Assembly: GCA_021782315.1 (NCBI GenBank)
Contig: JAJXVG010000006.1
Coordinates: 1 to 42,411 of the forward strand
Length of the DNA: 42,411 bases
Direction: 5' to 3'
Source of the DNA: Pseudomonadota bacterium
GTDB lineage: Bacteria; Pseudomonadota; Gammaproteobacteria; Burkholderiales; Rhodocyclaceae
Positions 8,593 through 37,005 of this stretch are shown here, piece after piece. Each line of letters begins with the position of its first letter. Positions within the stretch are counted from its first letter, which is position 1. The translations under genes were made by a program, and so were the position numbers. The notes under the pieces were generated by a model, which saw only the letters and a list, made by a program, of their open reading frames with translations, did not search any database and was not told the DNA's origin.

Positions 8593-9287
8593 AACTGCCG
8601 GATCATGCGCAGCGACAGGGCGTAGCTATGGTGTAGCTGCGCATCGTCGTAGCGGTGTTCGCTGCCGACCGGGCAGGCCGTGCGGGCCAGGCAGGTGAAT
8701 TGGCAGGCGGCGTTTGTGCCCAGGCGATAGGCGACGCATGCGGCAAGCGAGAACTCGCCGGCTAGCGCACCGGCCGGGCAGGCCGCGGTGCACGCCCGGC
8801 TCTGGCAGCTCAGACAGGGGTCTCGGCCGGCCAGCGGCGGAAAGGGCTGGAAATCGCTGTCGACCAGAACGACGGCCCGGTAGGCGAACCAGCTGCCCCA
8901 TGTCTCGTCGATGCCGACCATGAAGGGGGAGGGGCGATGCCAGCCGGCCAGCCGGCCGAGTTGCTGCAGGCCGATCACCTGTTCGCCGGGATAAAGAATC
9001 CGGTAAGGCCTGCCCGGCAGAAAGGCGGCCAACCAGCGCGTCACCGTCTGCAGGGTGTATTGGTCTATGGGATGCTCGCCGCCGATGCCGCTGGCCTTGA
9101 TGCATTCCCACAGCCGCCGGCCGCCGTGGCCGATGAGGATCAATTGCCGGTAGCCCTCGCCATCGCCCAGCGTCTGGCGGACTGCCGGCGGCAACTGCGC
9201 CAGGTCGAAAACGTGCTGGCGGTTCAGGCCCGCCTCGTTCAGGAAGGTCGCTGGAAAGAGGGGGGGCACGGGAGGCTGTTCGCGCAT
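8586..9287 (-). CDS. 4Fe-4S cluster protein, distantly QueG-like
   Basis: A 233-residue cytoplasmic protein. The C-terminal third has two cysteine groups: CLSCQSRACTAACP (Cx2Cx4Cx3CP), and later ACQFTCLARTACPVG, consistent with one or two 4Fe-4S clusters. The N-terminal part (IGHGGRRLWECIKASG) recalls the cobalamin-binding half of epoxyqueuosine reductase-like proteins, but it is shorter than QueG (about 350-380) and I cannot assign the reaction. It begins two bases after dacB ends on the same strand, so the pair is an operon. Confidence 0.75.
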   Translation of the reverse strand: MREQPPVPPLFPATFLNEAGLNRQHVFDLAQLPPAVRQTLGDGEGYRQLILIGHGGRRLWECIKASGIGGEHPIDQYTLQTVTRWLAAFLPGRPYRILYPGEQVIGLQQLGRLAGWHRPSPFMVGIDETWGSWFAYRAVVLVDSDFQPFPPLAGRDPCLSCQSRACTAACPAGALAGEFSLAACVAYRLGTNAACQFTCLARTACPVGSEHRYDDAQLHHSYALSLRMIRQFY

Positions 9288-9289
9288 TC

Positions 9290-17833: not shown

Positions 17834-17898
17834 GATCGAAATACCGAGTGGCGCATGAGGCCAATGAATTCCTCCCGTTTTTTTTGCTGGTTACTCTT

Positions 17899-18846
17899 GT
17901 GAGCAATCTGATACAGGCGCGCCTGGACGAATTCAGGCAGCGGCGTCGCGTTCAGGCCGGATCGTTGATCATCACCGTTTTCGGCGATGCCGTTCTGCCG
18001 CGTGGCGGCCGGATCTGGTTGGGCAGCCTGATTCAATTGCTGGAGCCTCTGGCGCTCAATGAACGCCTGATTCGCACCTCGGTTTTCCGTCTCGTCAAGG
18101 AAGAGTGGCTGCGGGCGGAGTCCGTCGGTCGACGCGCCGAATACGCGCTCACCTCATCCGGCAAGCGGCGCTTCGAGGAGGCGGCGCAGCACATTTACGC
18201 CTCCAACGCACCGCTTTGGGATAGACGCTGGCGTCTGATACTGGCCGTTCGGGGCATGGATCCCAAGGTTCGCGAGCAGTTCAGGCGGGCCTTGTTCTGG
18301 CAGGGCTTCGGGGTATTGGGCGACGACTGCTTCGTGCATCCGAGCGCCGATCTGTCTAGCGTTTTCGATGCCCTGATCGCCGATGGCCTGTCCTCCGTCC
18401 TCGGCGGCCTGTTGCCGCTGTTCGCCGCCGATTCGCGTTTGGCGCAGTCGGCCAACGACGCTGACCTGGTGCGCCGGGCCTGGGATCTCGGCATCCTGGC
18501 CAACGCCTACCGCGAATTCGTCGCCTGCTATCAACCCATTCTCGACGAGATGCAACTGGATAGCCTGTTCGAAGTCAGCGAACAGGATGCCTTTTTGCTG
18601 CGCATCCTGCTCATCCACGATTACCGTCGATTGCTGTTGCGCGACCCGGAGTTGCCGGAGGTGTTGTTGCCGCCGAATTGGCCGGGTCAGAAGGCACGCC
18701 TGTTGTGCAAGGAACTGTACAAGCGCCTGGAACCGGTCTCCGCTCGCCATCTCGATCAATGGCTCTGCCTTGCAGACGGCCGGATTCCGGCGCAGGACGC
18801 CCTGCTCACCGAGCGCTTTCCGCAATACGACCCCTTGGGCGCCTAG
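17899..18846 (+). CDS. paaX: phenylacetyl-CoA-responsive repressor PaaX
   Basis: A 315-residue transcription factor, nearly the same length as E. coli PaaX (316). After a winged-helix N-terminus ([16 protein letters not shown], close to the E. coli GDSLSHRGGEIWLGSL) it keeps the PaaX core with [27 protein letters not shown] and [15 protein letters not shown]. It represses paa genes until phenylacetyl-CoA binds. GTG at 17899 is preferred over GTG at 17848 because it aligns with the E. coli start and avoids an odd hydrophobic extension. Its stop overlaps the convergent paaY stop. Confidence 0.94.
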
Positions 18847-19460
18847 CCCTGCCTGTTTTTCAACTCGCTTAGAGGTACGATGTCTGGCATTTCGATGCGC
18901 TTGCGCCCGGCTTCGACCGCCGTCAGTGGCGTCGTTTCGACCAGGGTGGCAAGGCAGCGCCGGGTCAGTTCCTGATAGGTACGGGTACCGTCGGCTTTCC
19001 AGGCCAGTTCCTCGTCGCTGAGGAGGCGAACGACCCTGGCCGGGATGCCGGCCAGCAGGGAGCGTGGCGGCAGTTCCTGCTTGGCCTTGACGAAGGAGGA
19101 GGCGGCGACGATGCTCGACTCGCCGACGATGGCGTTGTCCATGATCACCGCGTTCATGCCGACCAGCGCGTTGCGGCCGATGCGGCAACCGTGCAGCACG
19201 GCACCGTGGCCGATATGTCCGTTCTCTTCGACGACGGTGTCGGTGCCGGGAAAGCCGTGCATGACGCAGGTATCCTGCAGGTTGGCGCCGGCCTCCAGGA
19301 TCAGTCGGCCGAAATCGCCGCGCAGGCTGGCGCAGGGACCGACATAGCAATGCGGGCCGACGATGACGTCGCCGATGAGGACGGCGCTGGGGTGAACATA
19401 GGCAGTCGGATCAACGACCGGTACGATGCCGTCGATGGCATAAACGCGAAGTTGTGACAT
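18843..19460 (-). CDS. paaY: PaaY hexapeptide-repeat thioesterase
   Basis: A 205-residue left-handed beta-helix protein of the gamma-carbonic-anhydrase type (hexapeptide repeats from about residue 18 to 150, with metal-type histidines in HGFPGTD and [12 protein letters not shown]). PaaY is known as a thioesterase that clears toxic 2-hydroxycyclohepta-1,4,6-triene-1-formyl-CoA formed by a side reaction of the aerobic phenylacetate route. Convergent with paaX, as in many paa loci, and divergent from the IclR regulator 73 bases away. Confidence 0.9.
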
Positions 19461-21251: not shown

Positions 21252-22025
21252 TCAGCGGTTCCTGAATACCGGCTTGCGTTTTTCGACGAAGGCGGCCATG
21301 CCCTCCTTCTGGTCCTCGACCGCGAAGGCGGCGTGGAAGACGCGACGTTCGAAGAGCAGGCCTTCGTTCAGTGAAGATTCGAAGGCGCGGTTGACCGATT
21401 CCTTGATCATCATGACTACCGGCAGCGAGTAGCCGGCAATGGTCTGCGCCGCCTTCAGGGTTTCGTCGAGGAGTTGATCGGCCGCTATGACGCGGGCGAC
21501 CAGGCCGGACTTCTCGGCTTCGGCGGCGTCCATCATCCGCCCGGTCAGGCAGAGGTCCATCGCCTTGGCCTTGCCGACGGCGCGCGGCAGGCGTTGTGTG
21601 CCGCCGGCCCCGGGCAGGGTACCGAGCTTGATTTCGGGCTGGCCGAATTTGGCGCTATCGGCGGCGAAGATCATGTCGCACATCATCGCCATCTCGCAGC
21701 CGCCGCCCAGGGCGAAGCCGGCCACCGCGGCGATGACCGGCTTGCGTGCCGTCTTGATCCGTTCCCAGTTGCGGGTGATGAAATCGGTCCGATAGGCGTG
21801 CATGTAGTCGAAATCCTTCATGAAGCCGATATCGGCGCCGGCGGCGAAAGCTTTCTCGTTGCCGGTGACGACGATGCAGCCGATGGCGTCGTCGGCTTCG
21901 AAAGCGTCGATGGCGGTGGCGATGCCGTCGACCACGTCATTGTTCAGTGCATTCATCGCTTCCGGGCGGTTGATGCGGATCAGGCCGACTTTGCCGATTA
22001 CTTCGGTGAGGACTACGGGGTTCAT
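21252..22025 (-). CDS. paaF: enoyl-CoA hydratase PaaF
   Basis: A 257-residue crotonase from ATG at 22025, which has a GGAG ribosome binding site; the track start (TTG at 22037) lies in the terminator T run. Motifs [11 protein letters not shown] and [13 protein letters not shown] hold the oxyanion hole and first catalytic Glu, and [17 protein letters not shown] the second. PaaF hydrates 2,3-didehydroadipyl-CoA to 3-hydroxyadipyl-CoA in the lower phenylacetate pathway. Similarity to short-chain enoyl-CoA hydratases in general means the exact substrate rests on context. Confidence 0.88.
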
Positions 22026-22035
22026 GGCTAACTCC

Positions 22036-22074
22036 AAAAAAATGACCGCCCCCCGAGGGAGCCGCGGGGCGGTC
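22036..22074 (-). terminator. Rho-independent terminator between livK and paaF
   Basis: On the minus strand a GACCGCCCC / GGGGCGGTC stem (9 bp) is followed by ATTTTTTT. It lies inside the operon, right before paaF, so it probably acts as a partial terminator that lowers paaF and crotonase expression relative to livK. Confidence 0.8.
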
Positions 22075-22198: not shown

Positions 22199-23344
22199 TC
22201 ACTGGACGATGGTCCAGTCGCCGCCCTTCACTTCGAGCAGGCGGAAAGCCGACAGGTCGAGGCCCATGTGGTCGCTGGCCGACATGTTGTAGGTGCCGCT
22301 GGTGCCGACGAAGCCCTTGGTAGCTTCGATGGCGTCGCGGACCTTGGCCTTGTCGGTCGAACCGGCGCGCTTGATGGCGTCGACCGCCAGCATCAGGCCG
22401 TCGTAGGCATAGCCGCCGAAAGTCGATACCTCCTGTTTGTAGGCTGTCTTATAGGTGTTCTCATAGGCGGTCACGACCGGTTTCTGCGGATCCTTGGCGG
22501 CCAGTTTTCCGGGAATCAGTTGGGCCGGGGAGGGCAGGCGGACGCCTTCGGCCGCCGGGCCGGCCAGCTTCAGGAATTCGTCGGAGGCCACGCCGTGCGA
22601 CTGGTAGAGCGGCAGGTTCATGCCCAGTTGCTTGAAGTTCTTGGTGACGATGGCCGGCCCCTGGCCGAGACCGAAGACGAATACCGCCTGGACTCCCGGC
22701 GTGTTCTTGATCTTGGTCAGTTGCGGGCTCATGTCGGTATCCTTGGGGCCGTAGGTCTCGTTGGCCACCAGCGTGATCCCGTACTTGGCGGCGACGCCTT
22801 CCGTTTCCTTCTTGCCGGACTGGCCGAAGCCCGAGGTTTCGGAGAGCAGGGCGACCTTGCTCAAACCGCGTTTTTTCATGTCTTCGAAGACCTTTTCGGC
22901 CGCCATGCGGTCGGTATGCGGCGTCTTGAAGACAAATTTCTTGACCGGCTCGACAATGACGACGGCGCCCGCCAGGGAGATGAAAGGGGTGCCGGATTTT
23001 TCGGCCAGCGGCGCCATGGACATGGTGGCGCCAGTGGTGGTGCCGCCGACCATCAGGTCGACCTTGTCGTCCTCGAGCAGGCGCTTGGCAAAGCCGTTGG
23101 CCTTGTTGGCATCGCTACCGTCGTCGTAATGGACCAGTTGCAACTGGCGGCCGAGGACGCCGCCCTTCTTGTTCAGTTCGTCAACGTACAGTTGCAGGGT
23201 CTTCAGCTCCGGGTCGCCGAGAAAGGCGGCCGGGCCGGTGACGGAGAGGACGGAGCCGATCTTGATCGGATCGGCTGCCAGGGCGCCAAAGGCGCCAAGC
23301 GTCAAGGCAGCGGCGGCAACGAGCTTCTTCATGCTGTGCTTCAT
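22199..23344 (-). CDS. livK: Liv-type ABC transporter substrate-binding protein
   Basis: A 381-residue periplasmic binding protein from ATG at 23344 (AAGGAGA ribosome site). Signal peptide MKHSMKKLVAAAALTLGAFGALA followed by the mature start ADPIKIGSVLSVTGPAAFLG. It belongs to the branched-chain amino acid/aromatic acid receptor family (peripla_BP_6). Embedded between paaJ and paaF, it should bring phenylacetate or a related aromatic acid to the permease encoded by livHMGF in the divergent operon; the ligand is inferred from context. Confidence 0.93.
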   Translation of the reverse strand: MKHSMKKLVAAAALTLGAFGALAADPIKIGSVLSVTGPAAFLGDPELKTLQLYVDELNKKGGVLGRQLQLVHYDDGSDANKANGFAKRLLEDDKVDLMVGGTTTGATMSMAPLAEKSGTPFISLAGAVVIVEPVKKFVFKTPHTDRMAAEKVFEDMKKRGLSKVALLSETSGFGQSGKKETEGVAAKYGITLVANETYGPKDTDMSPQLTKIKNTPGVQAVFVFGLGQGPAIVTKNFKQLGMNLPLYQSHGVASDEFLKLAGPAAEGVRLPSPAQLIPGKLAAKDPQKPVVTAYENTYKTAYKQEVSTFGGYAYDGLMLAVDAIKRAGSTDKAKVRDAIEATKGFVGTSGTYNMSASDHMGLDLSAFRLLEVKGGDWTIVQ

Positions 23345-23373
23345 GGGTTTGTCTCCTTTATTGATATATGTGG

Positions 23374-24579
23374 TCAGACACGCTCGATCACCATGGCGAT
23401 CCCTTGCCCAACACCGATACACATGGTGCACAGGGCGTAGCGACCGCCACGGCGTTTGAGTTCATAGGCGGCGGTGGTGATCAGGCGGGCGCCGCTCATG
23501 CCGAGCGGATGCCCCATGGCGATGGCGCCGCCGTTGGGATTGACGTGGGCGGCATCGTCGGCCAGCCCGAGATCGCGGAGGACGGCCAGACCCTGGGCGG
23601 CAAAGGCCTCGTTCAGTTCGATGACGTCCATCTGGTCCAGCCTCAGGCCGGTCCTGGCCAGCACCTTGCGTACCGCCGGAGCCGGGCCGAAGCCCATGAT
23701 CCGGGGCAGGACGCCGGCGGTCGCCATGCCGACGACGCGGACCAGCGGGGTCAGCCCGTGGCGGCCGGCCGCGGCCGGCGAGGCCAGCAACAGGGCGCAG
23801 GCGCCGTCGTTGACGCCGGAGGCGTTGCCGGCGGTGACCGAGAGTTCGGGTCCATTGACCCCCTTGAGCTTGGCCAGCATGTCCAGCGTCGTTTCCGGAC
23901 GCGGGTGTTCGTCGGTATCGATGACCAGCGGCTCGCTCTTTTTTCGGGGAATGAGCACCGGCACGATTTCGTCCTTGAAGCGGCCGGCGGCGTGGGCGGC
24001 CGCCCAGCGCTGCTGCGAGCGCAGCGCGAAGGCGTCCTGGTCGGCGCGGCCGACGGCGAAGTCGGCCGCCACGTTGTCGGCCGTCTGCGGCATCGAGTGG
24101 GTGTCGTACAGCTTTTTCATGGCCGGGTTGACGAAGCGCCAGCCGATGGTCGTGTCGTAGATCGCCGCCTGGCGGGAATAGGCGCTTTCCGCCTTGGCCA
24201 TGACGAAGGGGGCGCGCGACATGCTTTCGACGCCGCCGGCCAGCATCAATTCGGTTTCGCCCGACTTGATCGAACGGGCGGCGAGGCCGACGGCATCCAT
24301 ACCCGAGCCGCACAGGCGGTTGACGGTGGTACCCGGCACTTCGATCGGCAGCCCGGCGAGCAGGCCGGACATGCGGGCGATATTGCGGTTGTCTTCGCCG
24401 GCCTGGTTGGCGCAGCCGTAGATGATGTCCTCGACGGCCGTCCAGTCGACCTGCGGATTGCGCTCGATCAGCGCCTTGAGCGGGACGGCGCCGAGATCGT
24501 CGGCGCGCACGCCGGCCAGGGCGCCGCCGTAACGGCCGATGGGGGTACGGATGGCATCGCAGATAAAGGCTTCGTTCAT
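23374..24579 (-). CDS. paaJ: 3-oxoadipyl-CoA / 3-oxo-5,6-dehydrosuberyl-CoA thiolase
   Basis: A 401-residue thiolase, the normal PaaJ/PcaF length. Nucleophilic Cys90 in NRLCGSGMDA, the GHPLGMSGAR histidine motif and the C-terminal CIGVGQG active-site cysteine are intact. PaaJ acts twice in aerobic phenylacetate degradation: it cleaves 3-oxo-5,6-dehydrosuberyl-CoA and later 3-oxoadipyl-CoA, giving acetyl-CoA and succinyl-CoA. It begins 10 bases after paaK and is followed by livK after 29 bases. A pcaF role in protocatechuate degradation is possible by sequence, but context favours paaJ. Confidence 0.94.
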   Translation of the reverse strand: MNEAFICDAIRTPIGRYGGALAGVRADDLGAVPLKALIERNPQVDWTAVEDIIYGCANQAGEDNRNIARMSGLLAGLPIEVPGTTVNRLCGSGMDAVGLAARSIKSGETELMLAGGVESMSRAPFVMAKAESAYSRQAAIYDTTIGWRFVNPAMKKLYDTHSMPQTADNVAADFAVGRADQDAFALRSQQRWAAAHAAGRFKDEIVPVLIPRKKSEPLVIDTDEHPRPETTLDMLAKLKGVNGPELSVTAGNASGVNDGACALLLASPAAAGRHGLTPLVRVVGMATAGVLPRIMGFGPAPAVRKVLARTGLRLDQMDVIELNEAFAAQGLAVLRDLGLADDAAHVNPNGGAIAMGHPLGMSGARLITTAAYELKRRGGRYALCTMCIGVGQGIAMVIERV

Positions 24580-24589
24580 GTTCTTTTCC

Positions 24590-25915
24590 TCAATTCTGCT
24601 TCGGACGTTCGTCGAGTACGCGCTTGGCCTTGCCGGTCAGCGTGCGGGGAATGGAGTCGTGTTCCATCAGCGTGATCCGCGTCGAGATGCCGATGATGGT
24701 CTTGATGCGATGCTGCAGTTCCTTGCCGATGGCCTGGATTTCGTTCGGCGCCAGTCGGCCGGACAACTCGCGCTGCAACTCGCAGCGGACTTCGACATTA
24801 TCCAGATGACCGTCGCGGCTGACCAGTATCTGGTAGGTGCCGGCCAAGCGCTTGTCGCGCAGTATCTGCTCCTCGATCTGGGTCGGGAAGACGTTGACGC
24901 CGCGGATGATCAGCATGTCGTCGGAACGGCCGGTGATCTTGTCGATGCGGCGGAAGGAGCGGGCGGTCGGCGGCAGCAGGCGGGTCAGGTCGCGGGTGCG
25001 GTAGCGGATGACCGGGAAGGCTTCCTTGGTCAGCGAGGTGAACACCAGTTCGCCTTCCTCGCCGTCGGGCAGCACTTCGCCGGTATCCGGATCGATGATC
25101 TCCGGGTAGAAGTGGTCCTCCCAGATGACCGGGCCGTCCTTGGTCTCGATGCATTCGCTGGCGACGCCGGGGCCCATCACTTCGGTCAGGCCGTAGATGT
25201 CGATGGCGTCGATGCCGAGCTTGCGTTCGATCTCGCTGCGCATGCCCTGGCCCCAGGGTTCGGCGCCGAAGATGCCGACCTTGAGGGAAATGTCCTCGGG
25301 CTTGATGCCCAGGCGCTCGAATTCCTCGGCGATGACCAGCGAATAGGAGGGGGTGACCATGATGATCTCGGGCCTGAAATCCATGATCTGCTGCACCTGC
25401 TTTTCGGTCTGCCCGCCGGATATCGGCACCGCGCAGCAGCCGGCGCGCTCGACGCCGTAGTGGGCGCCGAGGCCGCCGGTGAACAGGCCGTAACCGTAGG
25501 CGACATGGACCATGTCGCCGGGACGGCCGCCGGCGGCGCGAATCGAACGGGCGACGACGGAGGCCCAGTTGTCGATGTCGTTGCGGGTGTAGCCGACGAC
25601 GACCGACTTGCCTGTGGTGCCCGACGAGGCGTGGAGGCGGGCCAGCTGGGTGCGGGGCACGGCGAAAAGGCCGAAGGGGTAGTTGTCGCGCAGATCCAGC
25701 TTGGTCATGAAGGGGAACTTGCCGAGATCGCCCAGGGTTTTAAGGTCGTCCGGATGGACGCCCTTTTCCAGGCACTTGCGGCGGTAGGGTTCGACGTTGT
25801 CGTAGCAGTGGCGCACAGACCACTTCAGGCGTTCGAGTTGCAACGCCGAAATTTCATCGCGGCTGGCGGTTTCGATCGGATCGAGATCGCCGGTCTGAGG
25901 TTTCTTGACGGTCAT
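24590..25915 (-). CDS. paaK: phenylacetate-CoA ligase
   Basis: A 441-residue AMP-forming ligase that activates phenylacetate with ATP and CoA, the first step of the route. P-loop SSGTTGKS at 97-104; the adenylate-binding YGLTEVMGPG; and a C-terminal lysine loop IPRTLTGKAKRV whose Lys is the usual catalytic and acetylation-regulated residue. Length matches PaaK (about 437-440). An AGGAGA site precedes the ATG. It could serve anaerobic phenylacetate use as well, but all neighbours belong to the aerobic route. Confidence 0.96.
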   Translation of the reverse strand: MTVKKPQTGDLDPIETASRDEISALQLERLKWSVRHCYDNVEPYRRKCLEKGVHPDDLKTLGDLGKFPFMTKLDLRDNYPFGLFAVPRTQLARLHASSGTTGKSVVVGYTRNDIDNWASVVARSIRAAGGRPGDMVHVAYGYGLFTGGLGAHYGVERAGCCAVPISGGQTEKQVQQIMDFRPEIIMVTPSYSLVIAEEFERLGIKPEDISLKVGIFGAEPWGQGMRSEIERKLGIDAIDIYGLTEVMGPGVASECIETKDGPVIWEDHFYPEIIDPDTGEVLPDGEEGELVFTSLTKEAFPVIRYRTRDLTRLLPPTARSFRRIDKITGRSDDMLIIRGVNVFPTQIEEQILRDKRLAGTYQILVSRDGHLDNVEVRCELQRELSGRLAPNEIQAIGKELQHRIKTIIGISTRITLMEHDSIPRTLTGKAKRVLDERPKQN

Positions 25916-25945: not shown

Positions 25946-26410
25946 CTAATCGGCCTGCTCCAGACCGGCGATGACTTCGCCGGCGATGCGGTAGCTCTTG
26001 CCCCGGAACAGGGCGATGGTCTTGCCGCCGGCGGTACGCACCGTGACGTCGTAGACGCCGGTGCGACCGGAGGCGGATTGTTCGACGGCTTCGGCCTCCA
26101 GAGTCTCGCCCTCCCTGGCCGGGGCCAGGAAGTCGATATGGCAGGCGGAGGCGACGGTGTTCCTGTTATAGCTGTTGCAGGCATAGGCGAAGGCGGTGTC
26201 GGCCAGGCTGAAAATCATGCCGCCGTGGCATATGTGGTGGCCGTTGACCATGTCGGAACGGACCGTCATGTCGAGCCGGGTGGCGCCCGGTTCGATGCGG
26301 ACGATCCTGATGCCGAGCGCCTGGGCCGCGCGGTCGCGCGGCCACATCGCCGCAGCGGTGGCTTCGGCCAGTGCCTGTGCTTCGGCGGGGGAGGGTTTAT
26401 GTTCAGTCAT
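25946..26410 (-). CDS. paaI: PaaI hotdog thioesterase
   Basis: A 154-residue hotdog-fold acyl-CoA thioesterase, from ATG at 26410 (the track's 26437 start lies inside paaH). The motif NGHHICHGGMIFSLADTAF carries the HGG turn and catalytic Asp. PaaI removes CoA from hydroxylated phenylacetyl-CoA dead-end products, protecting the CoA pool. Its start overlaps the paaH stop by eight bases, indicating coupled translation. The PaaI label rests on motif and operon position. Confidence 0.93.
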   Translation of the reverse strand: MTEHKPSPAEAQALAEATAAAMWPRDRAAQALGIRIVRIEPGATRLDMTVRSDMVNGHHICHGGMIFSLADTAFAYACNSYNRNTVASACHIDFLAPAREGETLEAEAVEQSASGRTGVYDVTVRTAGGKTIALFRGKSYRIAGEVIAGLEQAD

Positions 26411-27932
26411 GGATGTTTCTTCCGGCAAATACGGCACGCTGGATCAGCGGGGAGATGCGATAGCGGTCTTCGCCATAGCTGCCGCCGAGATTGGCCAGCA
26501 CCTCGCGGATGCGCTCGACGCCGACCCGGTCCGCCCAGGCCAGCGGCCCCAGCGGGTAATTGACGCCGAGGCGCATGGCCGAGTCGGCCGCCGCTTCGGA
26601 ACAGACCCCCTGGTTCACGGCGTCGGCCGCTTCGTTGGCAAGCATGGCAAGGCTGCGCATGACGGCCAGCCCGGGGACGTCGAGGAAGCGCGAAACGGCG
26701 AAGCCGGCTGCCTGCAGCAGGCCGATGGCGGCCGAGATGGCGCTCGGCTCGCACTGCTCGGCGGCGGCGATGGCGAGGCGGCTGGCCTGGTTGTAGTCGA
26801 GCGCGAGGTCGATCAGCACGGTGTTGGCGATGCCGCTTTGGTGGGCGCGTTGCGTCGCGCTGCGGCCGTCCGTGACGAAGATCGTGGCGCGGCCGATTTC
26901 GGCGACCCGGCCATCGGTTTCGGGGGCGCGACCGAAGGACAGGCGGCTGTGCTCGAGCCGTTCGGCCAGCGCTTCGGCGACGGTCGACTCGCCGAAGACG
27001 GTGATCTTGCCGGCCGGCGCCTGGGCTGCTTCGGTCTGCGGCTGGGGACGTTGGGCGCCTTCGCGGTAGTCGTAGAAACCGCGTCCGCTCTTCCTGCCCA
27101 GGAATCCGGCATCGACCAGTTCCTGCTGGAGCAGCGACGGCAGAAAACGGGGGTCGTTATAGAAGGCGCGCCAGACCGAGCCGGTCACGGCGAAATTGAC
27201 GTCGTGGCCGATCATGTCCATCAGCTCGAAGGGGCCCATGCGGAAGCCGCCGGCCTCGCGCATGACGGCATCGATGGTGGCGTAGTCGGCGGCGCCCTCC
27301 TGGGCCAGGCGCAGGGCCTCGGCGTAGTAGGGGCGGGCGACGCGATTGACGATGAAGCCGGGGGTCGACCTGGCGTGCACCGGGGTCTTGCCCCAGGCGG
27401 CGGCGGTGGCGAACAGTGTGTCGGCAACGGCCCGGTCGGTGGCCAGGCCGGAAACGATCTCGACCAGTGCCATGAGCGGCGCCGGGTTGAAGAAATGCAG
27501 GCCGGCCAGTCGTTCCGGGCGTTGCAGCGCGGCGCCGATGGCAGTCACCGAGATCGACGAGGTATTGGTGCCGAAGATACAGTCGGGCGCGACGATGGCT
27601 TCGAGGTCGGCATATAGCTTCTGCTTGGCTTCGAGGTTTTCGACGATGGCCTCGACGACCAGCGCGCAATCGACCAGGTCGGAGAGCTGCCCGGCCGCCA
27701 GCAGGCGGTGGCCGGCGGCTTCGGCGGCGGCTGCCGTCATCCGTCCTTTTTCGGCCAGCTTGGCGAACTGGCCGCGAATGCCGGCGATGGCCCTGTCGGC
27801 CGCGCCCGGGCGATTGTCGAGCAGCTTGACCGGGTGGCCGGCCGCCGCCGCGATCTGGGCGATGCCGGCGCCCATGGCGCCGGTGCCGACGACGGCGATG
27901 ATCGCCTGTTGGGGGAGGGTTGTGTTGCTCAC
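26403..27932 (-). CDS. paaH: 3-hydroxyadipyl-CoA dehydrogenase PaaH
   Basis: A 509-residue NAD-dependent 3-hydroxyacyl-CoA dehydrogenase from GTG at 27932, four bases after paaG; the longer track ORF reads through paaG in another frame. Rossmann motif VVGTGAMGAGIAQIAA near residues 14-29; catalytic His in HFFNPAPLM; C-terminal helical domain duplicated, as in long PaaH/HbdA forms. It oxidises 3-hydroxyadipyl-CoA to 3-oxoadipyl-CoA. It sits in the expected paaG-H-I-K order. Confidence 0.93.
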   Translation of the reverse strand: MSNTTLPQQAIIAVVGTGAMGAGIAQIAAAAGHPVKLLDNRPGAADRAIAGIRGQFAKLAEKGRMTAAAAEAAGHRLLAAGQLSDLVDCALVVEAIVENLEAKQKLYADLEAIVAPDCIFGTNTSSISVTAIGAALQRPERLAGLHFFNPAPLMALVEIVSGLATDRAVADTLFATAAAWGKTPVHARSTPGFIVNRVARPYYAEALRLAQEGAADYATIDAVMREAGGFRMGPFELMDMIGHDVNFAVTGSVWRAFYNDPRFLPSLLQQELVDAGFLGRKSGRGFYDYREGAQRPQPQTEAAQAPAGKITVFGESTVAEALAERLEHSRLSFGRAPETDGRVAEIGRATIFVTDGRSATQRAHQSGIANTVLIDLALDYNQASRLAIAAAEQCEPSAISAAIGLLQAAGFAVSRFLDVPGLAVMRSLAMLANEAADAVNQGVCSEAAADSAMRLGVNYPLGPLAWADRVGVERIREVLANLGGSYGEDRYRISPLIQRAVFAGRNIHD

Positions 27933-27936
27933 GCTT

Positions 27937-28731
27937 TCACTCTCCGGTGAACTTCGGGGCGCGCTTCTCCATGAAGGCGGCGACCCCCTCGGCGTAGTCC
28001 GGACTCCAACCCAGTTCGCGCATGAAGCCGCCCTCCAGCGACAACTGCTGCTCCAGCGTGTGGCCCGGCGCGGCATGCATGGCCTGACGGGTGCGCACCA
28101 GCGCCTTGGTCGGCGCGGTCGATAGTTGCTTGGCCAGGGTGTCGATGCGGGCGGCAAAATCGGCATCCTCGGCGCATTCCCAGATCAAACCCCATTCGGC
28201 GGCTTTCTCGGCAGGCAGTTTGTCGGCGAGCAGGGCGAGGCCCATGGCCCGGGCCATGCCGACGCGTTGCGGCAGGAACCAGGTGCCGCCGGTATCCGGG
28301 ATCAGGCCGATCTTGGAAAAGGCCTGCAGGAAGGAAGCCGACCGGCTGGCGACGACCAGGTCGCAGGCCAGGGCGAGCGAGGCGCCGGCCCCGGCGGCGA
28401 TGCCGTTGACCGCCGCGATGGTCGGCACGCGCAGGTTCTGCAGGCGGAGTATCAGCGGTTTGTAATTGCGTTCGACGACATTGCCGATGTCCGGCATCCG
28501 GCCGGCTATCATCTGCATCTCCGGATCGGCCAGGTCCTGGCCGGCGCAGAAGGCGCGGCCGGCGCCGCTGAGGACCAGGACGCGGACGGCCGGGTCGTTC
28601 TGGACCATGTCCAGAACGACGCGCAATTCGTCATGCATCTCGCCGGTGAAGCTGTTCAGCTTGTCGGGACGGTTCAGCGTCAGGCGGGCAATGCCGGTGT
28701 CGACGGTAAAGGTGATGGTCTGGAAATTCAT
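27937..28731 (-). CDS. paaG: 1,2-epoxyphenylacetyl-CoA isomerase PaaG
   Basis: A 264-residue crotonase-fold isomerase. It converts the ring epoxide of phenylacetyl-CoA to the seven-membered oxepin-CoA, and also shifts a double bond lower in the pathway. The motifs AFCAGQDLAD and GIAAGAGASLALACD form the oxyanion hole, with the catalytic Asp in IGLIPDTGGTWFLP as typical for PaaG (no Glu pair as in hydratases). It follows paaN by nine bases. Its presence argues strongly that an epoxide intermediate is made by this locus. Confidence 0.93.
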   Translation of the reverse strand: MNFQTITFTVDTGIARLTLNRPDKLNSFTGEMHDELRVVLDMVQNDPAVRVLVLSGAGRAFCAGQDLADPEMQMIAGRMPDIGNVVERNYKPLILRLQNLRVPTIAAVNGIAAGAGASLALACDLVVASRSASFLQAFSKIGLIPDTGGTWFLPQRVGMARAMGLALLADKLPAEKAAEWGLIWECAEDADFAARIDTLAKQLSTAPTKALVRTRQAMHAAPGHTLEQQLSLEGGFMRELGWSPDYAEGVAAFMEKRAPKFTGE

Positions 28732-28740
28732 CTTGCCCTC

Positions 28741-30408
28741 TCAGATATGGTAGCGGCGTTGGACGACGACGAATCGATTGGCGACGAAGGCGGCGTCGGC
28801 ATAGGAAGCATTGGCTGCCGGGTTGCCGCCGGTGCCATGGTAGTCGGAGTAGGCGGCCGACTGGTTCACGAAGACGCCGCCGCTCAGGTTGATCGAAAGG
28901 GCGACCTTGGAGCGCAGCGTGGCGGCGGTCATCGCGTCGATCACCTCGGCCCTGGTCGAATAGATGCCGGCGGTCAGGGCGCCATGCGTCGTCACGATGC
29001 GCTCGGAGAGGGCGATGGCTGCCGCCGTGTCAGCCACCTTGACGATGAAGCTGATCGGGCCGAAACGCTCTTCCATGTAGGCCTTTTCGTCGGCGGCATC
29101 GCAGGCGAGGAGGACCGGGGTGCGGACTTCCGCCTTCGGGAACTCCGGGTTGTCGAGCTTGCCCGAAGCGAGGACGACCTTGCCCAGTGCGCCGCTGTCG
29201 GCTTCGGCGATACGTTTCAGGGTATCGGTCGATTGCACGGCGCCGAGCACGGCCAGCGCGACTTCCGGTTTGGCCAGGAAAGCGGAGACGGCGCCGGCGA
29301 GGTCGGCGCAGACCTCGTCGTAGGATTTGTGGCCGTCTTCCGTTTCGACGCCGCCGGCCGGGACGAAAATGGCCTGCGAGGTGGTGCACATCTGGCCGGA
29401 ATAGAGCGCCAGGGAGAAGGCCAGGTTGCCGAGCATGCGCTTGTAGCTGTCGGTGGAATCGACCACGATGTTGTTGACCCCGGCCAGTTCAGCGTAGACG
29501 CGGGCCTGGCGGCAGTTGTCGATAAGCCATTGGCCAAAGACATTGCCGCCGGTGAAGTCGATCGACTTGACGGCCGGGTGGGTGACCAGGGCTTGTGTCG
29601 TGCTCCGCTGGCCGGCGACGCACAGGCTGACCAGATTGGGGTCTATACCGTTTTCGGCGAGCACCCGGCGGATGGTGCGTACCGTAATGGCGGCCGGCAG
29701 GATGGCGTTGCCGTGCGGCTTGACGATGACGGCGTTGCCGGTGGCCAGCGCGGCGAACAGGCCGGGGTAGGTGTTCCAGGTCGGGAAGGTGCCGCAGCCG
29801 ACGACGACGCCGACGCCATGGCCGACAATTTCGAAATGCTTCTTCATGACCAGCGGCGGGTTCTTGCCCTGGGGTTTTTCCCAAGTCGCTTCGGCCGGTA
29901 CGAAGCTCTGCTCCCGCCAGGCGTAGGCAACCGCTTCCAGGCCGCGCTCCTGGGCATGCGGCGCGCCGGCCTGGAAAGCCATCATCCAGCCTTGGCCGGT
30001 GGTCATCATGACGGCGTGGGCGATTTCAAAACTCTGGGCATTGAGTCGTGCCAGGATCTCCAGGCAGAGGCCGGTGCGCCCGGCGGCGCCAAGCTTCTGC
30101 CAGCCGTTCATGGCTTGTTGCCCGGCGGCGATCAGCGCTTCGTGGTCGCAGACCGGGTATTGCACGTCGAGGGTTATGCCGTAGGGCGACTGCTCGCCAC
30201 CCTGCCAGCCGGACTGGCCGGGCTGGTCCAGTTCGAATCGTTGGCCGAGATGGGCCTCGAAAGCCTTCTTGCCGTCCTCGGCAGCTGTTTCGCCGTAAAC
30301 CTTGGGGCTTGGCATTTCACTATAAGCCGACCAGTAAGCGCGGGTCTGGATGGCATTCAGGGCGCCATCGAGCGTGGCGCGGTGCTTGTCGAGCAGGGGC
30401 TGGGACAT
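28741..30408 (-). CDS. paaN: PaaN aldehyde dehydrogenase (PaaZ-type, lacking the MaoC domain)
   Basis: A 555-residue aldehyde dehydrogenase, first gene of the minus-strand operon, from ATG at 30408 with an AAGGAGA site. Catalytic Cys in SGQMCTTSQ and general-base Glu in VYAELAGVNN are kept. It resembles the single-domain PaaN group rather than E. coli PaaZ (about 680), whose C-terminal MaoC-like domain hydrolyses the oxepin ring. It should therefore oxidise the ring-opened semialdehyde to 3-oxo-5,6-dehydrosuberyl-CoA and rely on a separate hydrolase. It is divergent from the di-iron gene. Confidence 0.9.
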   Translation of the reverse strand: MSQPLLDKHRATLDGALNAIQTRAYWSAYSEMPSPKVYGETAAEDGKKAFEAHLGQRFELDQPGQSGWQGGEQSPYGITLDVQYPVCDHEALIAAGQQAMNGWQKLGAAGRTGLCLEILARLNAQSFEIAHAVMMTTGQGWMMAFQAGAPHAQERGLEAVAYAWREQSFVPAEATWEKPQGKNPPLVMKKHFEIVGHGVGVVVGCGTFPTWNTYPGLFAALATGNAVIVKPHGNAILPAAITVRTIRRVLAENGIDPNLVSLCVAGQRSTTQALVTHPAVKSIDFTGGNVFGQWLIDNCRQARVYAELAGVNNIVVDSTDSYKRMLGNLAFSLALYSGQMCTTSQAIFVPAGGVETEDGHKSYDEVCADLAGAVSAFLAKPEVALAVLGAVQSTDTLKRIAEADSGALGKVVLASGKLDNPEFPKAEVRTPVLLACDAADEKAYMEERFGPISFIVKVADTAAAIALSERIVTTHGALTAGIYSTRAEVIDAMTAATLRSKVALSINLSGGVFVNQSAAYSDYHGTGGNPAANASYADAAFVANRFVVVQRRYHI

Positions 30409-30473: not shown

Positions 30474-30502
30474 ACGATACTAATAGTACTGCATGATGTC
30501 AA
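30474..30502 (-). promoter_or_regulatory. sigma-70 promoter of paaN operon (TTGACA-N17-TATCGT)
   Basis: On the minus strand the consensus -35 TTGACA (30497-30502) and TATCGT (30474-30479) are 17 bp apart. The -10 box is part of one AACGATACTAA repeat, so a protein bound to the repeat would block RNA polymerase. This fits a repressor-controlled operon. Confidence 0.65.
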
Positions 30503-30683
30503 ATGTTGGTATCACGTAAACGATATTTGTTTGTTGTTATGTTTAGCGAAAATTGTTCCTTGCATTGTATATACATGAATAAAAACAATATGTTAAATAT
30601 TTAAATTACATTGATTGTTTGTTGTATTCTGTATGGCGTAAATAGTTCCTTGATAACTTTTTCTGTAAACGATACTAAAAATG

Positions 30684-30713
30684 TTGACACACTTCGATGT
30701 TGTGTATCATTAT
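30684..30713 (+). promoter_or_regulatory. promoter of the di-iron oxygenase operon (TTGACA)
   Basis: A consensus TTGACA at 30684-30689 is followed by TATCAT at 30705-30710 (15-bp spacing) or CATTAT at 30708-30713 (18-bp spacing). The second AACGATACTAA repeat ends five bases before the -35 box. Confidence 0.6.
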
Positions 30714-30789: not shown

Positions 30790-31818
30790 ATGGCCAGTAA
30801 CAAGGAACGTTTTGCAGACAAGATGGAGTTTCCGCCGGCAACGCCGCAGCCGAACATCTATCCGCTGTCCTGGAACAGCAAGACCAAGAAGCTTCAGGAA
30901 GTATGGGAAGCCGCGCTGCGCGAGAACTGGGATCCGGAAAAGCTCCCCTGGGACACCCTGGATGTCGACAGCTACTCCTGGGAAGAGCGCGAATCCATCG
31001 CCTACTGGTGGAGCCTGCTGTCGGTGTTCGACGCTTCCGCGCCGCCCGTTTTCGCCGAAGCGCTGATCAAGACCTACGAGGTGCACGAGGAGGACCCGGT
31101 TCGCAAGTGTTTCTTCTCGGTTACCCGCGACGAACAGAATCACGAAATCATGTGCGGCCTGGCCATCACCAAGATGCTCGGCCACCCGGACCCGCTGACC
31201 TACGTGCCGAAGACCGAACTGGGCAAGCGCCTGCAGAAGAACGTGCAGTGGCTGTACTTCAATGGCGGCCGTTACTGGACAGGCTACAAGCAGGCGGTGC
31301 CGAAGTACGACCTGGCCGTGCTGTTCAGCTCTTTCCTGATGGGCGAGATCGCCGCCGCCACCATCTTCAAGCAGATGTTCGACAATTCCCGTGAAGCGGT
31401 ATTCAAGGAGGGATTCAAGAATATCGGTCGTGACGAAGGCCGTCACATGGCCATCTGCATGGCGGTCATGGAGCGCGACTACCCGGGCCTCGACGAATCG
31501 ACCAAGGCCATCGTCACCAAGCAGATTCGCGCCGGCTATCTTTTCCTGTCGGCCGTGCTCTTCGAGCCGCCGATGGAATTCTGGGACCTGCCGTCCGACT
31601 TCATCGCCAACCAGCGCGAAGCCGAGGAGGTCGCCCGCGGCGCCGGCTTCGGCATTCCGACCTACGAGGCCAAGCTGGAAAACTGGAGAAATGCGATGAT
31701 CAACCTGAAGGGCGTGCTCGATCGCTACAACATCCCCTTCCCGGCCATCCCCGAAGTCGGCATCACCGGTCAGGAAGTTTCGGAAATCGACATGGAAGAC
31801 ATCATCCCGGTCTTCTAA
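30790..31818 (+). CDS. ferritin-like di-iron protein, putative single-subunit oxygenase
   Basis: A 342-residue soluble protein from ATG at 30790 with AAGGAG before it. Two ExxH metal motifs of the ferritin/ribonucleotide-reductase R2-like four-helix fold are seen: E115-Q-N-H118 and E216-G-R-H219, with E186 thirty residues before the second. The first-helix ligand is uncertain (D81 or E90). It is unlike PaaA or BoxB in the parts I recall. It leads the plus-strand operon, before a 2Fe-2S/FAD reductase and the Liv genes, divergent from paaN. By position it may epoxidise phenylacetyl-CoA in place of PaaABCE. The di-iron class is well supported; the substrate is inference. Confidence 0.82.
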   Translation: MASNKERFADKMEFPPATPQPNIYPLSWNSKTKKLQEVWEAALRENWDPEKLPWDTLDVDSYSWEERESIAYWWSLLSVFDASAPPVFAEALIKTYEVHEEDPVRKCFFSVTRDEQNHEIMCGLAITKMLGHPDPLTYVPKTELGKRLQKNVQWLYFNGGRYWTGYKQAVPKYDLAVLFSSFLMGEIAAATIFKQMFDNSREAVFKEGFKNIGRDEGRHMAICMAVMERDYPGLDESTKAIVTKQIRAGYLFLSAVLFEPPMEFWDLPSDFIANQREAEEVARGAGFGIPTYEAKLENWRNAMINLKGVLDRYNIPFPAIPEVGITGQEVSEIDMEDIIPVF

Positions 31819-31942: not shown

Positions 31943-32992
31943 ATGGCCCGTATCATCATGCAGCCCTCTGGCAAGTCCGTAGACTGCGCCTATGGCGATA
32001 CCGTTCTGATGGCGCTCGAAAAAGCCGGCTACGCCCTGCCCAACAACTGCCGCGCCGGCGCCTGCGGCGAATGCAAGGTCAAGGTCACGGGCGGTCAGTT
32101 CGATCAGGGCATGGTGCTCGACATGGCCTTGTCGCAGGATGAGCGCAAACAGGGGTACGGTCTGATGTGCATGGCCAAGCCGATTTCCGAAGAACTGACC
32201 ATCGAGTGGGGCACCGAGGATGCCAAGCCCAAGCTCTTCCCGCCGCGCGAGGATGCGCTCTTTGTGGTCGTCGACAAGAAGCGGATCGCCGCCCGTGTCG
32301 TCGAGTTGCGCCTGCGTCCGGTCGGTCAGCCAATCCGTTACTGGCCAGGCCAGTACGTGACCCTCGGCAATCCGCGTGCCGACATTCCGGCACGCGCCTA
32401 TTCCATTTCCAACGCGCCGCGCCCGGATGGCGAACTGGTGCTGCAGGTCGCCCGCGCCGACGGCGGCGTCACCAGCAACTGGGTTCACGACCAGCTGACC
32501 CTGGGCGAAAGCGTCAAGATTTCCGGTGCCTACGGCACCTTTATCGGCGATCCCTCGGTCGATACGCCGGTGCTGTGCATCGCGGCCGGTACCGGCCTGG
32601 CGCCCGTGCTTGCCCTGGCCGAAGCGGCGCTGCGCAGAGGTTACAAGAAGCCGGTGACGATGCTCTTCTCGGCCCGTACCCGGGACGATGTCTATAGCCA
32701 GGGCATGATGTCCTGGTGGCGGACCAAGCATCGCAGTTTCGACTACAAGGTGACGCTGACCCGCGAAACGGCCGACGGTTTCCTGCAGGGGCGGATCGAT
32801 GTCGTGCTGCCGCAACTATTCAAGGATTTGTCGAAGCACACCATCTTCGTTGCCGGCAGCCCGGAATTCGTCAATAGTGCCGTCGCTGCAGCCAAGGCCC
32901 AGGGCGCACTGGACGAGTTGATCCATACCGAGGGTTTCTTCGCCCAGCAACAACCCGTGGTGGCCGATGCCGCGCATCTGCTGCCGGGCTGA
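31943..32992 (+). CDS. 2Fe-2S/FAD/NAD(P)H oxygenase reductase
   Basis: A 349-residue electron-transfer protein. An N-terminal plant-type ferredoxin domain has the cluster cysteines in CRAGACGECKVKV plus the later GLMC; the middle domain has the FAD motif RAYSISNAP; the C-terminal domain has the NAD(P) motif AAGTGLAP. Domain order (ferredoxin first) is as in benzoate dioxygenase and methane monooxygenase reductases, and opposite to PaaE, where the ferredoxin domain is last. It should pass electrons from NAD(P)H to the di-iron protein encoded just upstream. The start has an AGGAAGAAG site. Confidence 0.9.
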   Translation: MARIIMQPSGKSVDCAYGDTVLMALEKAGYALPNNCRAGACGECKVKVTGGQFDQGMVLDMALSQDERKQGYGLMCMAKPISEELTIEWGTEDAKPKLFPPREDALFVVVDKKRIAARVVELRLRPVGQPIRYWPGQYVTLGNPRADIPARAYSISNAPRPDGELVLQVARADGGVTSNWVHDQLTLGESVKISGAYGTFIGDPSVDTPVLCIAAGTGLAPVLALAEAALRRGYKKPVTMLFSARTRDDVYSQGMMSWWRTKHRSFDYKVTLTRETADGFLQGRIDVVLPQLFKDLSKHTIFVAGSPEFVNSAVAAAKAQGALDELIHTEGFFAQQQPVVADAAHLLPG

Positions 32993-33067: not shown

Positions 33068-33103
33068 ATGAAGCGCATGTGCCTGCAGAGAAGGAGGATC
33101 TGA
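33068..33103 (+). CDS. possible 11-residue leader peptide before livH
   Basis: ATG at 33068 has a strong AAGGAGA site and opens MKRMCLQRRRI, whose TGA overlaps the livH ATG by one base (TGATG). The livH ribosome site AGGAGG lies inside this short frame. It may couple translation of livH or be a remnant of a lost start region. There is no evidence yet that the peptide itself has a function. Confidence 0.4.
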   Translation: MKRMCLQRRRI

Positions 33104-33978
33104 TGCTGTCGCAGTTCTTGCAGTTTTTATTTTCCGGGGTGACGGTAGGGGCGACCTACGCACTGGCGGCCCTGGGTTTCACGCTGATATACAACGCGAG
33201 CAACGTGATCAATTTCGCCCAGGGCGAATTCATCATGCTCGGCGGCATGCTGGCGGTGTTCTTCACCCAGGCCGGTCTGCCTTTGCCGGTGGCCTTGCTG
33301 CTCGCCATGCTGATTCCGGCCGCGGTCGGCGTGCTCATCGAAAAACTGGCCATCGAACCGGTCAAGGGCGCCGAGCCGGTTACCCTGATCATCATCACCA
33401 TCGGTGCCTCGCTGGTCATCCGCGGCCTGACAGCCGTCATTTTCGGCAAGGGAACGCACAGCCTGCCCGCCTTCTCCGGCGACACGCCGATCGAGATCCT
33501 GGGCGCCACGCTGCTGCCGCAGAGCCTGTGGGTGCTCGGCATCACCGCCCTGGTCGTCGTCCTGCTCTGGTATTACTTCAACCGCACCTTGCAGGGCAAA
33601 GCCATGCTCGCCACCTCGTTCAACCGGCTGGCTGCCGAACTGGTCGGCATCAATACCAGCTGGGTGCTGTTCATGAGTTTCGCCATGTCGGCGGCGCTCG
33701 GCGCCCTGGGTGGCATCCTGATCACGCCGATCACGCTGACCTCCTACGACGTCGGCATCATGCTCGGTCTCAAGGGTTTCGTCGCCGCCGTGCTCGGCGG
33801 CCTGGGCAACGGTCTGGGCGCCGTGGTCGGCGGCTTGCTGGTCGGCATTCTCGAAGCGATGGGAGCGGGCTACATCTCCTCGGCCTACAAGGACGCCATC
33901 CCTTTCGTGCTCATCCTGTTCATTCTCTTCTTCATGCCGCGCGGCTTGTTCGGCGGCCAATCGACGGATCGGGTGTAA
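33103..33978 (+). CDS. livH: Liv-type ABC transporter permease LivH
   Basis: A 291-residue membrane protein with about eight helices and the family signature NVINFAQGEFIMLGG near residues 38-52. ATG at 33103 follows AAGGAGGA. It forms half of the transport channel with LivM. The set livH-M-G-F directly follows the oxygenase and reductase, with the binding protein livK in the divergent operon, so it likely imports an aromatic acid for this pathway rather than leucine. The substrate is inferred. Confidence 0.94.
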   Translation: MLSQFLQFLFSGVTVGATYALAALGFTLIYNASNVINFAQGEFIMLGGMLAVFFTQAGLPLPVALLLAMLIPAAVGVLIEKLAIEPVKGAEPVTLIIITIGASLVIRGLTAVIFGKGTHSLPAFSGDTPIEILGATLLPQSLWVLGITALVVVLLWYYFNRTLQGKAMLATSFNRLAAELVGINTSWVLFMSFAMSAALGALGGILITPITLTSYDVGIMLGLKGFVAAVLGGLGNGLGAVVGGLLVGILEAMGAGYISSAYKDAIPFVLILFILFFMPRGLFGGQSTDRV

Positions 33979-33980
33979 GC

Positions 33981-34913
33981 ATGCCAAAGAACGTCTATCG
34001 CGGTCTCTACCTGGTCATCGCCATTTTGCTGGTGCTGCCCCACGTCCTGCCCAACAGCTATTACCTCGATCTGGCAGTGCGTATGGCGATCAATGCCGTC
34101 ATCGTCCTCGGCCTCAACCTGCTGATCGGCTTCGCCGGCCAGATCAGTCTCGGCCACGCCGGTTTTCTCGGCATCGGCGCCTACGCCTCGGCGGTCCTGC
34201 CCACCCATTTCGGCTGGCATCCGCTTGCCGCCATGGGTGCCGGCGCCCTCGCCGCCGGTCTTCTTGCCGCCCTGGTCGCCCGGCCGATTTTCAAGCTCAA
34301 GGGCAATTACCTGGCGATGGCGACTCTCGGTCTCGGCATCATCATCAGCATTGCGCTCAGGAACGAGGCGCAGTGGACCGGTGGGCCGGACGGCATGCCG
34401 GTGCCGTCGATGGGCCTGTTCGGCTTCGAACTGAGCAACGACCGGCAGTGGTACTGGGTCGTCGCGCTGCTGCTCTCGGTCTCGGTCTGGGCCTCGCTGA
34501 ACCTGATCGACTCGCCCTTCGGCCGTGCCCTGCGCGCCCTGCACGGTTCCGAAGTCGCCTCGCAGGTGGTCGGTGTTGACATCGTCCGCTACAAGGTGGC
34601 CATCTTCGTCCTCTCGGCCGTCTTCGCCAGCCTGATGGGCAGCATCACGGCGCACTACGTCGGTTTCGTCAGTCCCAACTATGCCGATTTCTTCCACTCC
34701 ATCGAACTGGTCACCATGGTCGTCATCGGCGGCATGGCCTCGGTTTACGGTTCGCTGGTCGGTGCCGTGCTGCTCACCGCCCTGCCGCAGGCGCTGGCCA
34801 CCTTCGAAGGTTGGGAAACGGTGGTTTTCGGCGCCATTCTCATGCTCTGCATGATCTTTTTGCCGAAAGGCCTGGTGCCGACCCTGGCGGCCAAATTCGG
34901 AAAGGGCGAGTGA
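33981..34913 (+). CDS. livM: Liv-type ABC transporter permease LivM
   Basis: A 310-residue membrane protein from ATG at 33981, two bases after livH; the longer track ORF overlaps livH in another frame. The family motif LIGFAGQISLGHAGFLGIGAYASA is typical (partial quote GQISLGHAGFLGIGAYA). About nine membrane helices; the cytoplasmic EAA-like loop FGRALRALHGSEVASQVVG couples to the ATPases. Normal LivM length without the extra N-terminal segment of the E. coli form. Confidence 0.94.
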   Translation: MPKNVYRGLYLVIAILLVLPHVLPNSYYLDLAVRMAINAVIVLGLNLLIGFAGQISLGHAGFLGIGAYASAVLPTHFGWHPLAAMGAGALAAGLLAALVARPIFKLKGNYLAMATLGLGIIISIALRNEAQWTGGPDGMPVPSMGLFGFELSNDRQWYWVVALLLSVSVWASLNLIDSPFGRALRALHGSEVASQVVGVDIVRYKVAIFVLSAVFASLMGSITAHYVGFVSPNYADFFHSIELVTMVVIGGMASVYGSLVGAVLLTALPQALATFEGWETVVFGAILMLCMIFLPKGLVPTLAAKFGKGE

Positions 34914-34915
34914 CC

Positions 34916-35677
34916 ATGTCCATGCTCGAAGTCAAGGACCTCTCCATCCATTTCGGCGGCGTCAAGGCAGTCCAGAACGTCAGCTTCGCCATCGACCCCG
35001 GCATCGTCTACTCGGTGATCGGTCCCAACGGGGCCGGCAAGACGACCCTGTTCAACCTGATCACCGGCGTCTACAAGCCGAGTGCCGGCGAAATCCGGCT
35101 CGACGGCGAAGCCATTCACGGCAGGTCGCCGAACGAACTGGCTCGGCGCGGCGTCGCCCGCACCTTCCAGAATCTGCAGATATGCATGAACATGAGCGCC
35201 CGGGAAAACGTCATGGTCGGTGCCCACCTGCGACTTGACCGCAATCTGCTCAAGGCTGCGCTGCATTTGCCCGGATTGAGGAAGCGCGATGCCGAATTGC
35301 GCGACGAAGCGGCCGAACTGATGCGCTTCGTCGGTCTTGAGCAATACGTCGAGGCCAGGGCCGATGCGATGTCCTACGGCCTGCTCAAGCGCCTGGAAAT
35401 CGCCCGGGCGCTGGCGATGAAGCCGCGCCTGATCTTCCTCGACGAACCGGCCGCCGGACTCAACCCCAAGGAAACCATCGAGGTCGACCAACTGGTCCGC
35501 AAGATCGCCGATGCCGGTGTCACTGTCGTCCTCGTCGAACACGACATGAAGATGGTCATGAACCTGTCCGACCGCATCCTCGTGCTCAACTACGGCAAGA
35601 AACTGGCCGAAGGCACGGGCGAGGAGATCCGCCGGAACCCGGACGTGATCGCCGCCTACCTGGGCGCCCACGCTTAA
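34916..35677 (+). CDS. livG: Liv-type ABC transporter ATPase LivG
   Basis: A 253-residue ATPase. Walker A GPNGAGKTT, Q-loop TFQNLQ, Walker B LIFLDEPAAGLNP and the H-loop VEHDM are in place. The signature region reads MSYGLLKRLEIARAL, departing from the usual LSYGQQRRLE by replacing QQ with LL; LivG signatures already lack the canonical LSGGQ form, so activity is probably kept. It starts two bases after livM. It works as a heterodimer with the hemerythrin-LivF fusion encoded next. Confidence 0.93.
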   Translation: MSMLEVKDLSIHFGGVKAVQNVSFAIDPGIVYSVIGPNGAGKTTLFNLITGVYKPSAGEIRLDGEAIHGRSPNELARRGVARTFQNLQICMNMSARENVMVGAHLRLDRNLLKAALHLPGLRKRDAELRDEAAELMRFVGLEQYVEARADAMSYGLLKRLEIARALAMKPRLIFLDEPAAGLNPKETIEVDQLVRKIADAGVTVVLVEHDMKMVMNLSDRILVLNYGKKLAEGTGEEIRRNPDVIAAYLGAHA

Positions 35678-35688
35678 AAGGAAAAAGC

Positions 35689-37005
<1,317 letters not shown>

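Follow-up and report, generated by a model that had tools for sequence, protein, structure and literature searches.

The Phenylacetate Gene Cluster and Its Oxygenase

The window, i.e., the entire 42,411-nucleotide stretch of DNA analyzed here, harbors a phenylacetate catabolon comprising PaaX, Y, F, J, K, I, H, G, and N, most of which scored above the curated cut-offs (Table 1). The 1,2-phenylacetyl-CoA epoxidase PaaABCDE is absent from the window, and profile searches for PaaA and PaaC revealed neither protein in the whole genome. This absence is not due to a missing contig, as the binding-protein gene and paaF, between which PaaABCDE is located in relatives (L126, L127/L128, and L129), adjoin each other in the window. 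The only oxygenase within the paa cluster is encoded by the gene pair designated here as DIIR, a di-metal protein, and RED, its putative reductase. Pfam analysis of RED showed the ferredoxin-FAD-NAD architecture of the MmoC/BenC type, and RED was found to adjoin DIIR in nearly all the relatives whose contig extends to its place. With a Fer2-FAD-NAD reductase alongside, DIIR fits the oxygenases served by reductases of this type. The first-pass annotation of this DNA dealt with the protein and passed over its genomic setting, a paa catabolon devoid of PaaABCDE, which is the informative part. Among the transporter genes downstream of RED, that at 35689–37005 (+ strand) encodes a hemerythrin domain (residues 4–137) joined to a LivF ABC ATPase, and the fusion forms one open frame in more than 30 related loci. 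Could it be an O2- or iron-responsive transporter subunit?

Table 1. Genes and operator-like sites of the phenylacetate cluster in the window, with scores and the corresponding curated cut-offs in bits.
Feature	Position	Strand	Evidence and remarks
PaaX repressor	17848..18846	+	TIGR02277, 275 (cut-off 265)
PaaY	18843..19460	-	TIGR02287, 327 (cut-off 320)
PaaF-like enoyl-CoA hydratase	21252..22037	-	NF004517, 444 (cut-off 396)
Periplasmic substrate-binding protein	22199..23431	-	Pfam; synteny
PaaJ/PcaF 3-oxoadipyl-CoA thiolase	23374..24579	-	TIGR02430, 715 (cut-off 597)
PaaK, phenylacetate-CoA ligase	24590..25915	-	TIGR02155, 699 (cut-off 646)
PaaI-like thioesterase (4HBT)	25946..26437	-	Pfam
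PaaH, 3-hydroxyacyl-CoA dehydrogenase	26403..27914	-	TIGR02279, 683 (cut-off 669); start approximate
PaaG, 1,2-epoxyphenylacetyl-CoA isomerase	27937..28731	-	TIGR02280, 367 (cut-off 345)
PaaN, ring-opened semialdehyde dehydrogenase	28741..30408	-	TIGR02288, 885 (cut-off 579); divergent to DIIR
Palindrome GATAC-N28-GTATC over PaaN-side promoter	30476..30513		Exact copy; conserved
Palindrome GATAC-N28-GTATC over DIIR-side promoter	30671..30708		Exact copy; conserved; TTGACA at 30684
DIIR, di-metal oxygenase	30790..31818	+	342 aa, ATG start; ORF, invariant ligands, AF2 model
RED, reductase (Fer2 + FAD_binding_6 + NAD_binding_1)	31943..32992	+	349 aa; Pfam domains; proposed electron donor
LivH, LivM, LivG, hemerythrin-LivF (uptake transporter of the cluster)	33079..37005	+	Pfam/NCBIfam; order kept in many relatives

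Operator-Like Palindromes

Two exact copies of the palindrome GATAC-N28-GTATC were observed in the window against an expectation of 0.04. Both are located in the PaaN–DIIR intergenic region, where they overlie promoter-like sites in divergent orientation, and the palindrome is retained at equivalent places in most of the relatives. It was also found upstream of LivH in 13 loci, of PaaA in L098, and of a PaaA-like gene in L142. In view of these positions, the palindrome probably serves as the operator for the phenylacetate regulon of these organisms, and DIIR very probably belongs to this regulon since the site is common to DIIR, PaaN, LivH, and the PaaA or PaaA-like genes. PaaX could be the regulator acting at this site; the E. 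coli-type PaaX site showed no enrichment in the window.

Ligand Set of DIIR

DIIR contains two ExxH motifs, E115-Q-N-H118 and E216-G-R-H219, and E186 is placed exactly 30 residues before E216, as the first-pass annotation had pointed out. Alignments of 28 and of 50 relatives showed D81, E115, H118, E186, D215, E216, and H219 to be invariant, indicating that the ligand motif is no chance pattern. The annotation had hesitated between D81 and E90 as the ligand from the first helix. Alignment of this helix across the family settled the choice as D81, whose column is kept, while relatives have A, S, Q, or R at position 90, and E90 was therefore rejected. The D81 column is occupied by Asp in homologs of ∼50% identity and by Glu in remote homologs of 16–21% identity. 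Based on these alignments, D81, E115, H118, E186, E216, and H219 are proposed as the metal ligands.

The description of the spacing as R2-like was found to be loose: the motifs are real, but the distance of 30 residues between the two Glu residues is nearer to that of AurF (31) than to those of R2 and R2lox (34–35). DIIR thereby resembles the AurF/CmlI N-oxygenases (PF11583) in the spacing of the last two ligand helices. It differs from them in having a dedicated reductase and a catabolic context, and in the position four residues before the last Glu, where AurF carries an extra histidine (H223) and DIIR has I212, invariant in the alignment of relatives.

Family and Fold

Profile searches against Pfam and NCBIfam placed DIIR in no curated family above cut-off. 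AurF (PF11583) was the sole Pfam model reaching an E-value of 0.001, with 21.3 bits against a gathering cut-off of 29.6; the closer homologs of DIIR scored 16.8–25.2 bits, likewise below this cut-off. DIIR matched no NCBIfam model, that of BoxB included, nor the PaaA/PaaC models PF05138 and TIGR02156, nor PF00268 of the R2 family. Single-sequence and profile searches revealed no PDB chain with a real sequence relation. Profile comparison of DIIR with PaaA gave a probability of 9%, which does not support a direct relation, though both ExxH motifs lined up nonetheless.

Tertiary structure prediction of DIIR using AlphaFold2 with the alignment of 50 relatives showed an all-helical bundle (pLDDT 82.5, pTM 0.86). 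The best PDB fold matches obtained with Foldseek were R2lox and RNR R2 (probability 1.0, TM ∼0.4–0.5, 14–17% identity), which are weak matches with an E-value of ∼3e-3; R2lox, a Mn/Fe protein, was the nearest fold, and the PaaAC complex (3pvt) appeared lower in the list. The predicted fold is R2/R2lox-like, a ferritin-like bundle with D/E, ExxH, E, and ExxH ligands, an assignment that holds at the superfamily level only. DIIR shares the six-ligand carboxylate/His set with R2lox and RNR R2 and differs from them in its low identity, the lack of a PF00268 match, and its location in a catabolic operon with a reductase. These results bear out the first-pass view that the protein is a di-metal oxygenase of the ferritin-like type and resembles neither PaaA nor BoxB, and DIIR was not found to belong to any characterized oxygenase family with a defined substrate.

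Distribution of DIIR and PaaABCDE

DIIR was present in 22 of the 37 genomes of the genus, almost exactly those with PaaG. It was accompanied by PaaA/PaaC in 12 of them and occurred without these proteins in 10, seven of which are at least 90% complete. G035, a genus member with PaaG and neither oxygenase, retains only a PaaX–PaaG remnant, and PaaG-like genes above cut-off without either oxygenase were found in other genera as well. PaaG alone is hence no proof of the pathway; it was discarded as the sole pathway marker for being too loose, and PaaN was used instead. Among the PaaN-positive genomes of an order sample (n = 30), DIIR occurred in five of the eight without PaaA and in one of the 22 with PaaA (Fisher p 0.002, with two genera only and genomes that are not independent). 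DIIR is dispensable where PaaABC is present, as the order sample included 49 genomes with PaaA and without DIIR, and G024 was the single genus member having PaaABC but not DIIR.

Fifty species with DIIR were obtained from a genome collection, some as draft or metagenome assemblies and several as isolates. PaaA was present in 28 and absent in 22; named isolates from Dechloromonas, Azonexus, Brachymonas, Castellaniella, and Insolitispirillum are among those without it. Mapping the presence or absence of PaaA on the DIIR tree gave 10–11 changes, at least six of them forced. No further member turned up in 370 genomes sampled more widely across the class, which makes the family a patchy one, and no relative of DIIR was found on viral contigs.

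Proposed Function of DIIR-RED

As all the steps of the pathway except epoxidation are represented in the cluster along with one oxygenase–reductase pair under the common operator, it is fairly likely that DIIR-RED is a two-component phenylacetyl-CoA (arylacetyl-CoA) monooxygenase that gives the ring-1,2-epoxide and replaces or supplements PaaABCDE. We infer this role from the pathway gap, synteny, regulation, and fold; a CoA site was not evident in the DIIR sequence. RED would accept electrons from NAD(P)H and relay them via FAD and its 2Fe-2S cluster to DIIR, whose carboxylate-bridged di-metal site is most likely di-iron. Once reduced, this site would activate O2 for the 1,2-epoxidation of the ring of CoA-bound phenylacetate, the product being the substrate of PaaG. 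DIIR-RED would thus act in place of PaaABCDE in the organism of the window and as a second, parallel oxygenase in species possessing both systems.

The two systems are alike in gene cluster, pathway slot, and the diiron helical bundle of the ferritin-like superfamily, with a sequence relation that is not significant. The catalytic part would be a single polypeptide in DIIR, whereas PaaABCDE employs PaaA, PaaB, PaaC, and PaaD, and the ferredoxin domain is N-terminal in RED but C-terminal in PaaE. The window and the DIIR-only clusters contained none of the partners of PaaA (PaaB, PaaC, PaaD, and PaaE). In organization, DIIR-RED can be likened to the benzoyl-CoA 2,3-epoxidase BoxAB, in which a single catalytic diiron subunit with a separate reductase attacks a CoA-bound ring; DIIR differs in matching no BoxB model, and the BoxA model gave a weak partial match to RED.

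The coexistence of PaaABCDE with DIIR in 28 of the 50 species suggests that DIIR may have another arylacetyl-CoA as its substrate or catalyze a different step. DIIR-RED might oxidize another CoA-bound aromatic acid, e.g., hydroxylated phenylacetyl-CoA or indoleacetyl-CoA, that feeds the same lower pathway, and would then broaden the range of substrates instead of standing in for PaaABCDE; the genes for indolepyruvate:ferredoxin oxidoreductase and 4-hydroxyphenylpyruvate dioxygenase near the Variovorax branch of the family point the same way. We consider this unlikely, as DIIR-only genomes retain PaaK, PaaG, and PaaN, which in the window score above cut-offs specific to the phenylacetate route, and the cluster has no other oxygenase. 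It is far less probable that DIIR is an accessory protein, e.g., one that deoxygenates the epoxide or removes O2 or peroxide as protection from epoxide toxicity, and that the oxygenase gene is located elsewhere. Such a role would agree with the operator and cluster common to DIIR and the paa genes and with the frequent occurrence of DIIR alongside PaaABCDE, but PaaA/PaaC are missing entirely from complete genomes that have DIIR, and a dedicated reductase and invariant O2-activating ligands fit a monooxygenase.

The first-pass annotation had also raised the possibility that a changed first ligand signified a Mn/Fe pair or other chemistry. R2lox as the nearest fold, and the helix-1 ligand being Asp in DIIR and Glu in remote homologs, could be taken in favor of a Mn/Fe enzyme with different chemistry. 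This suggestion found no specific support: Asp at the position of D81 is an ordinary ligand in classical R2 proteins, R2lox itself has Glu69, and the metal is not readable from sequence. The genomic setting calls for familiar monooxygenation, and a Mn/Fe enzyme of this kind is thus highly improbable. The Mn/Fe monooxygenase SfbO, considered as a precedent, showed no link to the DIIR family.

As the epoxidizing pair, DIIR-RED would represent an undescribed version of a familiar type of chemistry. No prior description of the DIIR family was found in the open-access literature. It is somewhat more probable than the contrary that a single-subunit arylacetyl-CoA monooxygenase family, so far undescribed, repeatedly replaced PaaABCDE in Beta-, Alpha-, and Gammaproteobacteria, perhaps in adaptation to the low-O2 life of denitrifiers. 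If so, a key oxygenase has given way to a protein with no recognizable sequence relation to it, and a system of two genes that epoxidizes the ring of a CoA thioester would be simpler than PaaABCDE both as a model and as a biocatalyst. Aerobic phenylacetate degradation is scored with PaaA and PaaC as obligate markers, e.g., in a survey (PMC13186573), and species relying on DIIR would accordingly be scored as lacking the pathway.

Related Loci

Variovorax plasmids carry a relative of DIIR (51–54% identical) with a 32% identical reductase (L138, 13959–16011; L139, 13977–16029) in a cluster encoding CoA ligase, thiolase, hydratases, and indolepyruvate:ferredoxin oxidoreductase; PaaN is present in L138, as is the nearby 4-hydroxyphenylpyruvate dioxygenase gene. 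As the product of an arylpyruvate:ferredoxin oxidoreductase is an arylacetyl-CoA, this cluster was counted in favor of such a substrate, and it suggests arylacetyl-CoA substrates for the whole DIIR family. A route for aromatic amino acids is possible for this branch.

A Nonomuraea homolog of ∼50% identity (L140, 13959–14981) is situated near a transposase, with no reductase found adjoining, and looks horizontally acquired. Two tandem AurF-like di-metal proteins are encoded beside liv transporter genes in L116 (1444–2385 and 2327–3316); the second has partly lost the ligand set, with D in the E186 column and Y in the E216 column. L142 (G210:C8:147001-167000), from a different genus of this family, has a divergent PaaA-like gene (∼8925–9668) between PaaN and PaaG. 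This gene matched no model above cut-off, scoring ∼60 bits with TIGR02156, and may encode another variant epoxidase.
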